From Branchiostoma floridae (taxonomy: Eukaryota > Chordata > Leptocardii > Amphioxiformes > Branchiostomatidae): 64,000 nucleotides of DNA. Shown piece after piece: positions 26,624-40,708 of this stretch (positions are counted from its first letter, which is position 1; each line of letters opens with the position of its first letter). The notes under the pieces are model-generated. The model was not told the origin of the DNA, did not search any database, and worked only from the letters and a program-made list of their open reading frames with translations. A program made the position numbers and the translations under genes. The stretch spans positions 8,281,763 to 8,345,762 of the forward strand of contig NC_049988.1 in NCBI RefSeq assembly GCF_000003815.2. Direction: 5' to 3'.

Positions 26624-29600
26624 CAAAATCAGTTAGTTATTGTAAAATCATTGTAAAATCCATTACAATTACATGCTAAGGCGTCATTTTTATCTGATTA
26701 CCTAGCTTACGAAGTTATAGACTAATTGCCCACGATGAGAACTAGTCTAATGGATCTCACAGGTCGATATTTTAAATAACACCGACAGAGTGGACTTTGT
26801 AAACGATTGGTTTGCAATGCTCAGACGATTTGAATAGTCAGTCAGAATCACAAAGAATGAATCCTATCAAAACTTTTATGCCTCCTGTCCGCACTATACC
26901 AACGATCGTTGTGTGACGATCAAATTGAGCGACCAAAATTGGACTTGTGTAACTCCTGACTTTAGAATACAAAATGTAACATTAATGGCATGATTAAAAA
27001 GACAACTAAACTCACAAAACGTTGAAAATCGTTTTTTTTTTTTATGTTTGAAATTCGTTGAGCGATCTGTGAAAACTTTAGTTGTTCTGTGGTCGCAGCG
27101 CGGACGCAGCTTTAGCGGAAAGGTCTTGTAATACCAAGGAAGTTTTTAACCTTCTTGGTAATACGTAATCTTTTTTTAAAGTTTTGTAATCAAGTGGCCA
27201 CAATCCCTTGTGATTATTAGTGACCTGTCCCTATACTACAGCTACAGCTACATGGCTTCACCCATGTGTTTCAGTCACAACCGCTTGAGTAGTAGGATAC
27301 AATGCAGATGAAGCGGTCGCCAACGATACGCGTCCAGTGAAGAACAAACATGTCGTGGTCCTATTACCTGGACGTACTACAGGTGTGGCATGGGTGTAGG
27401 GCGGGCGTGCTTGACTGTCTTACTGTCTACCCACGCCATCGAGACGTATTGTAAGATCGCTGGTACCGGTACCATGCAGTCTAGGGCAGTGATATTTGTG
27501 AGACATGTATCGGCACTCTCGACAAAATCACGATGTCTTTGGAACACTTTTGCAGTTTTGCTTGATATACTAAAAATAACATCCATCTACCGTATATTTG
27601 CACATTCTACACTTTATATTAGGCCCCATTGACTTAATTTTATGGATGTTTTTATTGCCATCCTTGTTTAAAAGGGGAGCAAGTGTGCTGTGGCCTCATG
27701 CCCAGACCAAGTGTTGCCCCCACCCCTACCCCACCCCCATCATCTGGTAAGCATAGAATTTTAATTGCCCATGCATTGTGACCACAATCTTTTTCAAAAC
27801 AGGCAAAAATCATCCTTGTCAATGTGGCCTTAGTACTAGCAAGATAATCTAATAAGAGAAGCGGACATAAGACGCACGAAAATCATGACATGATCGCTGC
27901 TCTGTCTGAGACTAAAAGTGGTGGAAAGCACACACGCGGACACTTGGTCACACACTGCTGTTTACTCGCCAAACAGTGAAATCAGAGCTACTTTCCCTAC
28001 GTGAGCACGCACACGAGCTTGAGTGATTGAGAGATTGGGCGTGCAACCTTGAGATTCAATAGCAAAAATCTATAATACAATAGCGTGCGCTACACGCTAC
28101 GTGCGTACGTTTGAGTATAGAAGTTTACAAGATTGTGCATCATGTGTATTTCGTGTGAATCTCTAAAATCTATGGAAAGAGACGTAACACTACGATCAAA
28201 ACTCATCGAGTTACTTGGGACAAATACTAAAACTACCTATACAAAAGTTGCAAAAGTTTTTCCCTTTAAACAGAGAAGTAGTTGTCCTTGTACGTCAAAT
28301 TAGAGCAAACCCGGAATGAATTCCAAACATTGATTATATTGGAAATATGATAGAAAGCAGATGTCAGCATTTCGGTTCTAATATCAATATGACGGGTAAA
28401 GAAATTGACAGAATTAGAAAGTCAAACTACAACTAAGGACATTAATGATTACAGGTATTAATAACATAACGTCCTTTGAAACATTTATGAGTCGTCCCTA
28501 TTGAAATCCCCTATTAGTGAGTCCTTAAAAGCAGCTTTGATTGGAACTATTGAAATCAGGACAAGCTGGCCCTAAGCCAAAGTACGGTATGTGTTCTTTG
28601 TTGACATTTGAGGTTGCCCATGCATGAAGGGAACGCCTTGTTCCCAAGTCTTAAACGATGTTTTGGTCTATTCATGTGGAAAGGTCAAAGCGTTGTATGT
28701 GTTTTGTGAACGTATTCATAGTGTACGCACACCAGCCACAAATCATAGGTATTACTCCTAACGGAATTTCTTTAACGTTCGTCGCCAACACGATTTTGTC
28801 TGAATCTTGAGACCGTCCCCAGGAAGATATATCAATCTACGCAAGTAAAATCATGAAAAGTATCATCATAGATAAAATCGTTCTGAATAAAAGGCGAGTA
28901 ATGGAACATTCCGAAAATGCAGAAGTCGCGTATCTGGTAAAGAATGCTGGGATAGAAGCTTTTTATGTTACTTAAGTAAAGTGAGGTAAGAATCGAAACA
29001 AATTGAATTCAGAGTCTTCTGAAATTAAATCGTTTGGAATAACTGCCTGTCCAACTGCTACCCAGCATTTGTCCTGTGGACACTTCAAAATGTAACTACC
29101 AATGCACATCATTGGTATATCTCTAATCTTTACTACATACGGAAATCTGTGGTATTAATACCCCCCTCACATTAGGCGCGATTCGATCGGACGACGAGTC
29201 TGCGAGCTCTAAATTACGAGGAGGCATGACCCTGACTGCCATNNNNNNNNNNNNNNNNNNNNNNNNNNNNNNNNNNNNNNNNNNNNNNNNNNNNNNNNNN
29301 NNNNNNNNNNNNNNNNNNNNNNNNNNNNNNNNNNNNNNNNNNGTCAGGGTCATGCCTCCTCGTAATTTAGAGCTCGCAGACTCGTCGTCCGATCGAATCG
29401 CGCCTAATGTGAGGGGGGTATAACGACAATCCTTACATGCGTTCTATATACCATAGTCTGACAGCTATCTCAAGAAATCCCAGATTGACTCACCCCCTCT
29501 CTTGAGATAAACATCGGTAGGTGCATTGTGACATCCCCCATGCGGTTATCAGTGGCAGTTTGAGGTTTCTACATTTTCCACAGGCAGCTCTTCAAACCGT

Positions 29601-37345: not shown

Positions 37346-39094
37346 ATGGCAACGGCAAGATCACCAATAGAGGTGCTCCTAACAGAGGACAAACTCCAGG
37401 ACTTTCAGAGGAAAGCGGCGATGTCCACCGAGGACGAGGAGGACAATGACTCGGGCAGTGAGAGTTCCACGTCGTTGCACTCGTTCGGTCGGCACGGTGC
37501 CGAGAAGAGGCCGCAGAGGAGGAAGAAACCCAAGCTAACAGGAGTCAGCAAACAGAGACAGCAGGCAAACGCACGGGAGAGAGACAGGACGCACTCCGTC
37601 AATACAGGTAAGATGTCATCTACACGGAAAATGTTTATTATTATCTGTACAAATTTTGCCAGCAGGGGACGGACTACCAAATGTTCCTATTCACTTTTCC
37701 CCTAGAAAATATATACTAGTGGAATCGAGCATCACAGCATACAACTGCATACACGCCGTAAACTATAGGAGTCTTGATTTTTTTGTGGAGAGATATGGAC
37801 GAAACGTCGCCACTGTCAGAGAGCTATTTTCTAGAATATCCGGGCACTTTTGTTGGTCTGTCCCTAGCTGACTGTTTTCCCCTTCCTTCCCCCTTTAGTT
37901 GACTCTGAGAGCAATCGCGAGAAAGCCCGGACTCAGAATTTGAACACAGGTAAAGCACATAACTTGCATGTGGACAATATTGTATACCAGTTCTTCTAAC
38001 AAAATTTTACGAAGACGTAACATACTGTACTATACTATACATGCACTATACTTAAAATTATGTACTATGCTATACTAGACGTATAGGAACTTTTGTGTAA
38101 GAGTTACCTGTCCTATGTTTCATGAATTTGTAACGAACGATTGATAACAGTGATAATCCATAATCGATTTAATGATTGTTTGATGGGTAAAAAGATTGAT
38201 TTATTGACGTTAGAACCACAGAGACGTTGACTAACCCTGAGACTATTGTAACACCCCCACCCCCTCCCACCCAGCCTTCACCACCCTGAGAACGATGATC
38301 CCCACCGAGCCTGCCGACAGGAAACTCTCCAAGATCGAGACTCTCAGATTGGCGACGTCTTACATCAGGTGCGTACAAAATAGTACACCGATTTTGTCCT
38401 TGAACGCTGATTCTAAAGAACTCGTAACGTTTGTTGAAATCTCTATTTCATATAGGAACATACAGCGTTACGTATATCAAAGGTGGAAACACACTTCCTC
38501 AGTGTAACAGTGAACTTATTGAGATTCATGTACTTAGCTTGTCATGTCTTCTGATACATTCCCTTCTTTCCCATGTATACGTTCTTTTCAACATATCTAT
38601 GCTTCAATACCATAACATGCATGCTGATTGCTATCCCCTTAGCAACTTTTGGACCAAAATAAGTAGCAGATTTACAATTATTATAATGGTTGCCGTTTTG
38701 GTGTCAAGATGGAAACTTTCTGAGAAAGACTAGACGATCTTTAGATTCTGCTGTTATGAATATTGATGTTCACTTCATTCTGTGTTTATGGATTAGTGTA
38801 ATAGATATTGCGATTGCGTTCTCGTTTCCCCAGTCACCTGGCCACGGTCCTGATGTATGGAGACGGGTGTCTAGAGGCGCAGCCGTGTCTGAGAAGACAA
38901 CAGTACCTACATCCGGGCACTGAGAACAAACCAACCCCTATCTGTACCTTCTGTTTGGCGCACAAAAAGAACACGGTAAGTTTTTCTGTATATCTATTTT
39001 ACTAATGACACATTGTGGATTGACTTGAGTATTCGTAAATTGCTATGGGAGGCTCAAAAATAAATCCCAAAAATGTTCGTCCCTGGGTGGGCTC

Positions 39095-39145
<51 letters not shown>

Positions 39146-40708
39146 AGAGACATCGATAACACTGAAAGTTTTCAGAAAGCTTCCGAAGTTTAACATAAAT
39201 ATTGATGCCAAATTTTTAATCTACGAGGGATCATTTATGTTTGAGACAAGTTCTAAGACAAGACATAAAACAATTATTCATGTAATCTTCCAAGCAAATA
39301 GTATACAAATCTTGTTATGGTAGATAGCTCACGCATTATGTGGTACCTGCACTGATATTAAAACTTACCTTTGGTAGTATTTGTACACTCAAAGTGGCAC
39401 ACATAACTTTTATTCAGACACAATTTATCATTCTAAAACTAAGGTGAAATATGGCTGCTACAATTAGAAACGCGGTGTCATATCAAACAATGAAAATCTG
39501 GAGAATCATAGCGACTTCAAAACTTCTTGAGTCGATAGTGCCCACCCACTACATGGTGTTGCTTAGACGTGATACATGTAGTGAAGGCTACTGTTGTGTA
39601 AATCTTCTGCCTCCAGAAATAAACTGTCCCTAAATCCCCAAACAAACCCTTTCCCATCAGTACTGATGCCCCTACTGTGTATTTTTCTTTCCACCGCGAA
39701 CAACCGACTCTTCGACTCTAAGTATGTTGGTAAATGTTTACCTCCTGAGTCACCTCCAATGTCACGAGTGTGTGCTGGGACGGCCAAACAGGCACTTCCC
39801 AGCCTTTTCCCTCTGCTTATCCCGCGAAAAAATAACAACAGATCGTCCGCAATGATTGATGTCAAAGGTCAGCCGACACTGATGACTTCCATATTGTCGC
39901 GACACGGCTCGTGTAAACTTCGGCGGGCTTCATGTGTCGTCGGTTCGGCTTTCATCGGAGGATAATCGGGCGGACAGGTCGCCACGTGTGGTGCGCAGGT
40001 GTCAGGGACCATGACAACTCTGTCCGGGGAAATATTTTCTAAGGTCCGTTTTATGTTTCCCGCCTCGTAAAGTTCACTGTACCTTATTTCTTGGTACAGA
40101 ATAGGGGATATTCGGCTTGATATGTGATTTTCGGTTTAGTGGCCTACCATGTTCAGTCAAATTTGTTCATACAATACCAGACGAATTCGAAAGTGTGTTT
40201 GGACACCACTTTTGTTATACTTTATTTTAGAAAATCCACATGCTGATTTCACATTGAACCTCTACCTTTCGAGTTTTGAAACTTCGCGAACTAGAGCAAA
40301 GGCTCTATATATAGATATACAAAATACTAGTATAACTTTCTGGTATGACGTTGCATATGCGCATATCAAAGGCTAGATGCTGTCCTTATACGGTGTACAG
40401 TCGGGGAAGAATACAGCAAAGGCTGTTAGGGCGTGGCCTGTACATAATATACACGCTTCAACATCGTCAGTCAAAATATTGAAAAACAACAACTCTACAA
40501 CCATTTCTTATCTGTTGGTTGTCTTTTTATGTGAAACTTAAGAATACATATGTTTCATCACAAGTCATTTTCTTGTATCAAAAGGCTTTGCTGCCGATTT
40601 TTTCAGGTGAACCCCATGACAGGTGCATCATTGAGAATGTCAGTAAAGAAAACTGTACTATCTGGGAGGTGTCAACACCTGACAAGTGTTGATAGTGTTC
40701 CCCACTAA
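37346..40708 (+). CDS. TCF15: bHLH transcription factor, paraxis/scleraxis (TCF15) family
   Basis: Exons 37346-37607, 38275-38368, 38834-38975 and 40607-40708 (TAA) sum to 600 nt, i.e. 199 aa, the same length as human TCF15. An acidic N-terminus ([14 protein letters not shown]) precedes a basic region ([15 protein letters not shown]), helix 1-loop-helix 2 ([20 protein letters not shown] then [18 protein letters not shown]), and the family C-terminal motif [12 protein letters not shown]. The bHLH is split by two introns (phases 1 and 2). Such factors bind E-boxes as heterodimers with E proteins and act in somite, muscle or tendon-like mesoderm. Start: the ATG at 37346 (MATARS) has an in-frame upstream ATG at 37304; the later one fits family length. 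The last exon ([15 protein letters not shown]) is the least certain. Paraxis and scleraxis cannot be separated here. Confidence 0.9.
37899..37949 (+). CDS. Candidate cassette exon duplicating the bHLH basic region
   Basis: A strong polypyrimidine tract plus TTTAG precedes, and GTAAAG follows, 51 bp of phase 1-1 in the first intron of the bHLH gene. Read in phase it encodes [16 protein letters not shown]. Aligned without gaps to the end of exon 1 ([14 protein letters not shown]), positions R, E, basic, x, R, T and the final NT agree. Inclusion would put this version next to helix 1 and push the normal basic region 17 residues upstream. Splicing is inferred only. Confidence 0.6.
39078..39151 (-). 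tRNA. tRNA-Asn (GUU)
   Basis: The 74-nt minus-strand sequence starts GTCTCTGTGGCGCAATCGGT, carries anticodon GTT in the loop CTGTTAACC, and has TTCGAGC in the T-loop. The acceptor arms GTCTCTG and CAGGGAC pair (one G-U), followed by discriminator G. A run of five T just downstream on the same strand (39073-39069) is a Pol III terminator. It lies antisense in the third intron of the bHLH gene and looks functional. Confidence 0.95.

Follow-up and report, generated by a model that had tools for sequence, protein, structure and literature searches.

A putative cassette exon encoding a second, diverged basic region in a paraxis-type bHLH gene of Branchiostoma floridae

The window analysed here is a stretch of 64,000 nucleotides on contig C10 of the Branchiostoma floridae assembly (513 Mb in 431 contigs). 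On its forward strand lies a gene whose product is a group A bHLH transcription factor, with a full HLH domain that includes the basic region. The exons were assigned by translation and, for the third and fourth, with the Pfam HLH profile. The coding part of exon 1 (37346..37607) specifies the N-terminus and a canonical basic region of 17 residues. It ends in phase 1 at the donor CAG/GTAAGA. Exon 3 (38275..38368) encodes helix 1, the loop and the start of helix 2. Exon 4 (38834..38975) completes helix 2 and carries the motif ICTFCL. A search by eye identified no later exon 3' of exon 4. When exons 1, 3 and 4 are joined, the protein scores 73.4 bits against Pfam HLH and covers profile positions 1-52 of 53 (cut-off 20.7). 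Across the same three exons we found the features of the paraxis/scleraxis (TCF15/SCX) family: a 15 residue motif, a 23 residue motif and ICTFCL. Placement of the gene is by these motifs, which are those of the vertebrate proteins, rather than by a tree. The paraxis-type gene is single in the assembly; the best other copy matches at 74% over 31 residues. A tRNA-Asn (GTT) gene lies antisense just past exon 4, in what is presumably the next intron of the bHLH gene (39077-39152, minus strand). The window also contains an assembly gap of 100 N (29243-29342).

A 667 bp intron separates the basic region in exon 1 from helix 1 in exon 3. Within it, at 37899..37949 on the plus strand, is a 51 bp candidate cassette exon. 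Its 17 residue peptide resembles a diverged basic region. The initial annotation had described an exon of this length and phase, at this place between the two domain-encoding exons, and our translation agrees exactly. The cassette is symmetric (phase 1-1), its frame is open, and it is bounded by an acceptor and a donor. It thus has the sequence features of an alternative cassette exon, and we infer that it is spliced. The frames of the skip and inclusion forms are both open through exon 4. Translation of the inclusion form gives a continuous protein across the junction, for which 30 residues were written out. This protein scores 73.3 bits against Pfam HLH, whose positions 6-52 align to residues 92-138; in that alignment the cassette serves as the basic region. 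Use of the cassette as a first exon, or by read-through, was rejected; there is a stop in the intron ~13 codons upstream in its frame, with no ATG after it. Searches of the assembly with DNA 37346-38370, DNA 37860-37990 and the cassette peptide each matched one place, so revealed no second copy or allele.

Splice sites were scored with human frequency matrices applied to this amphioxus sequence. The acceptor scores 4.75 bits on these matrices, within the top 1.35% of the 3692 AG dinucleotides in the window. It follows an unbroken pyrimidine tract of 22 nt (tract and AG, 37875..37898, plus strand), found with the splice matrices and a tract scan. No other AG in the window, on either strand, is directly preceded by a tract of at least 20 nt. 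Just upstream is CTGAC (37868..37872, plus strand), with its A 28 nt ahead of the first cassette base; by the consensus, this is branch-point-like. One acceptor in the intron scores higher (37706, 5.26 bits), and its phase-1 frame meets a stop four codons on. The cassette donor, CAG/GTAAAG (37950..37955, plus strand), lacks G at +5. At 3.62 bits, also on the human matrices, it is in the top 1% of the 3995 GT dinucleotides in the window. The exon 1 donor is better, at 7.01 bits, and that of the cassette is then the best in the intron. The splice signals had originally been called strong. That description fits the acceptor; the donor is moderate. Counting pairs of sites 30-300 bp apart that equal or exceed these scores, the window has 15 on its plus strand and 12 on its minus strand. 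Only one plus strand pair is open in phase 1-1, namely the cassette, together with two on the minus strand.

The weaker donor, without G at +5, would suit a regulated exon. Candidate regulatory motifs also flank the cassette. A Rbfox-type TGCATG lies 16 nt 3' of it (37965..37970, plus strand) and is the sole one in the intron. The plus strand of the window contains 24 such hexamers (~4% per 100 nt) and, hence, this one is weak evidence. Rbfox proteins acting from the downstream side are reported to promote exon inclusion, and skipping is favoured by PTB proteins, which bind to CU-rich sequence (PMC11701043). The tract at 37875..37898 is CU-rich and so might also be a PTB-type repressor site. 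Taken together, the TGCATG, the length of the CU-rich tract and the moderate strength of the donor are consistent with a regulated exon. The Srrm4-type rule for neural microexons places a UGC motif close upstream of the acceptor. The stretch 37800-37898 contains no TGC, and the cassette thus lacks the signal of such a microexon. YCAY is likewise missing from 37850-38000. Both absences weigh against the regulated reading.

The cassette aligns without gaps to the canonical basic region, as had been proposed at the outset. The two have in common R8, E9, a basic residue at position 10 (K10 in the cassette), R12, T13, N17 and T18. Six of 17 residues are identical, and all six are among the last 11. 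The first six cassette residues resemble no basic region and, therefore, the homology is carried by 11 residues. In Pfam HLH, the domain from helix 1 onward scores 49.0 bits alone and 68.5 bits with the cassette in front (+19.5). In the inclusion protein, the cassette adjoins helix 1 and is read by the profile as the basic region. A search of the PDB with a fragment containing both segments matched 11 distinct sequences. In the best three of these 11 alignments (TAL1, TWIST1 and NEUROD1), a stretch of 12 cassette residues falls on the basic region; the top alignment, with TAL1, requires a one-residue gap ahead of NREKAR.

We also built a matrix for amphioxus basic regions. This used 31 of 44 non-redundant rows, those whose basic region is interrupted by no more than one gap. 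Paraxis loci were removed before counting, but the canonical paraxis domain had served as the seed for collecting the rows. The canonical segment scores 36.1 bits and the 31 other rows score 20.3 to 48.4. At 9.6 bits, the cassette falls below all 31. It is nevertheless the top scorer of the 28 AG..GT cassettes in the intron that are 30-300 bp long and open in phase 1-1. No window segment of 667 bp reached its score (188 segments; best, -0.3), and neither did any of 1500 simulated Markov introns (best, 6.2). Chance is thus an unlikely source of the resemblance. On the other hand, 107 of 100,000 shuffles of the cassette residues align to the canonical segment with a BLOSUM score as high. A pseudo-exon that happens to look like a basic region would draw on the shortness of the match (11 residues), and on random stop-free 17-mers that score as high (14 of 601,638 Markov; 2 of 52,511 from the window). 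Such a sequence must also start at a strong acceptor and end at an in-phase donor in this particular intron. By our estimate, the rate of 2.3e-5 per 17-mer, combined with two other pairs of this kind in 128 kb, gives ~2e-7 per 667-bp intron if the two are independent. We regard this explanation as extremely improbable.

The search was extended to other bHLH genes. Of 78 HLH places in the genome, 45 were taken in as loci and 33 were left out. A scan at 8 bits over both strands of ten loci that match HLH in part (L018-L027) revealed no second basic-like cassette. Of the 10 matches listed, five or six are the genes' own basic regions. The rest are isolated and, by eye, have no GT in the next two bases.

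The position, phase and shared donor context of the cassette make a tandem duplication its likely origin. Over the last 13 codons, cassette and canonical segment are identical at 23 of 39 bases. Identities at the three codon positions are 9, 8 and 6 of 13, which do not by themselves show selection. Among the six identical residues, the codons differ synonymously in four, while frame, sites and motif are intact. Such a pattern would be anticipated if selection had maintained an old copy. The source is less clearly marked. Over the last 13 positions, similarity to the cassette is 37, 34, 33 and 32 for the closest other rows, and 32 for the gene's own basic region. Hence, with three of 31 rows closer and one equal, the gene's own segment is not singled out. 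A duplicated basic-region exon could have since become a relic that is now unspliced, or spliced only as noise. The front six residues, which have lost basic-region character, and the donor without G at +5 would agree with decay of this sort. Conversely, codon divergence has disrupted neither the frame and phase nor the acceptor, branch-point-like site and donor, and we consider a relic unlikely.

Inclusion was originally pictured as a swap of one basic region for another. A different DNA-contacting segment would indeed be placed beside helix 1. There is no replacement; the canonical region stays in the protein, 17 residues upstream. The coding part of exon 1 has 11 other GT dinucleotides, the best of which (37457, phase 1) scores 0.3 bits compared to 7.0 for the exon's own donor. 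Inclusion is an insertion; the cassette is frame-neutral, and exon 1 has no good alternative donor with which to remove the canonical region. Splicing from a donor further 5' in exon 1, which would make a genuine swap, was rejected on the same grounds, none of the 11 exceeding 0.3 bits. Nor, with the exon 1 identified here, is the arrangement that of a mutually exclusive pair of the E12/E47 type: the cassette is frame-neutral after exon 1, and exon 1 contains the start codon and lacks a good donor further upstream. On an ideal helix, insertion of 17 residues moves the canonical segment by 25.5 angstroms and 260 degrees. Therefore, the canonical segment would not be expected to contact the same groove in the same register.

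The cassette might instead be a constitutive exon, present in nearly all transcripts, so that the protein has tandem basic segments. Its good acceptor would allow this. There is also a precedent in COE/EBF, with a duplicated helix-2 exon, both copies of which are reported to be kept in jawed vertebrates (PMC2394523). However, the cassette donor is weaker than that of exon 1. Furthermore, the basic region of exon 1 scores as an ordinary member of the family (36.1 bits; the other rows, 20.3 to 48.4), and would hardly be kept so if always displaced. We judge constitutive inclusion very improbable.

The residues of the cassette bear on what an inclusion isoform might do. These comparisons use general background on basic-region numbering and DNA-contact roles. 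E9 and R12, each present in 31 of 31 amphioxus bHLH rows, are kept, as is R8 (23 of 31). Position 10 is K in place of R, and all 31 rows have R or K. Conversely, position 2 is V, where R occurs in 31 of 31 rows. Position 5 is E, and is acidic in none of the 31. Position 6 is S, compared to N in 25 rows and S in four. Acids are gained at positions 3 and 5, and net charge over the first six residues is -2, compared to +1 for the canonical segment. Loss of R2, N6 and positive charge, with the gain of two acids, points to weaker DNA binding. The loss of binding is uncertain because S at position 6 occurs in four of 31 rows. The changes suggest a basic region that is weakened rather than absent.

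Either a change in E-box specificity or a non-binding partner had been proposed for the inclusion form. A specificity switch would require that the included segment binds DNA well and prefers another E-box centre or flank. One gene would then have two tandem DNA-reading segments, with splicing picking the one in register and so setting two E-box preferences. Retention of R8, E9, K10 and R12 may preserve CAxxTG recognition, and the displaced canonical segment could add non-specific charge. Splicing within the DNA-binding domain at FOXP1 exon 18b and Pax6 exon 5a is reported to alter the site bound, although these proteins belong to other fold families. Loss of R2, E at position 5, S at position 6 and a net charge of -2 over the first six residues all argue against the switch, which we think improbable. 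Weaker binding, and thus an attenuated, Id-like isoform, is favoured over a new specificity.

Hence, the reading that we prefer, by a little over even confidence, is a real alternative exon of old duplication origin, whose skipping yields the ordinary factor and whose inclusion yields an attenuated or Id-like antagonist. The cassette would derive from the basic-region end of exon 1, or from a related basic-region exon. Skipping would produce an ordinary paraxis-type bHLH factor. Inclusion would insert 17 residues exactly at the junction of the basic region and helix 1, and the HLH should dimerise as before. If the helix continues, the canonical basic region would be out of register by ~25 angstroms and 260 degrees, with the cassette segment in its place. 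That segment retains the putative E-box core reader (R8, E9, K10 and R12), but R2 has become V, positions 3 and 5 are acidic and N6 is replaced by S. Its binding to E-boxes is therefore predicted to be weak. The isoform made by inclusion would then hold E-protein partners and act as an antagonist.

It was initially stated that no comparable switch is known in this family. For paraxis and scleraxis this agrees with the titles and abstract starts searched, in which neither these genes nor Twist is credited with an alternative basic region. Likewise, no duplicated basic-region cassette is described in titles or abstract starts of the open-licence literature searched. The statement does not extend to bHLH proteins at large. 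E12 and E47, from E2A/TCF3, use alternative bHLH exons and are reported to differ in DNA affinity (PMC5852603, PMC12585103). This system is nearest in kind to the amphioxus cassette, since alternative exons alter the bHLH DNA-binding domain. It differs in that the exon is mutually exclusive, encodes the bHLH region and belongs to another bHLH family. In amphioxus, the predicted event is a frame-neutral insertion that adds just a basic segment and leaves the canonical one in the protein. Splicing of the bHLH DNA-binding domain is thus already known; what would be new is a switch of basic region that works through an insertion and not by exchanging a whole bHLH exon.

ARNT exon 5 lies before the basic region. 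Neither it nor MITF exon 6A is known to be a copy of a basic region. ARNT exon 5 adds 15 residues N-terminally with a reported effect on DNA binding (PMC4905433), and MITF exon 6A adds 6 residues before the basic region, where an effect on DNA binding was examined (PMC11467436). Like the amphioxus cassette, both are small in-frame cassettes ahead of the bHLH domain. Unlike it, they precede the basic region and leave basic region and helix 1 in their normal register. COE/EBF is nearest in origin, being a tandem exon duplication within an HLH transcription factor (H2d-H2a), and lamprey transcripts with and without the duplicated helix-2 exon are described (PMC2394523). There, the duplicated element is a dimerisation helix, not a DNA-contacting segment, and is reported to be included in jawed vertebrates with no sign of alternation.

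Jawed vertebrate paraxis and scleraxis arose by duplication of a parascleraxis gene, which is seen in lamprey (PMC4458041). If splicing produces two DNA-binding forms, one amphioxus gene would do by isoforms what duplication may do elsewhere. The two forms would also show, as a natural experiment, which residues of the basic region are dispensable to a bHLH protein. A Tcf15-like gene is among those enriched in the neural plate in an amphioxus neurula atlas, and is possibly the present gene (PMC11136973).

A Twist-type gene lies on the same contig, ~1.1 Mb from the paraxis-type gene (L019, G000:C10:9421000-9430900; ~7743 and 8376). Paraxis and twist are reported to be linked in Nematostella as well (PMC10060217). 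The amphioxus Twist-type gene has a phase 0 intron after RERQRTQ, a few codons from the position of the paraxis intron. Elsewhere in the assembly (L030 and L031, G000:C2:20627000-20662500), three bHLH genes, apparently musculin/TCF21-like, lie on one strand within ~34 kb and have RMR-x-x-SKAF at the junction of basic region and helix 1.
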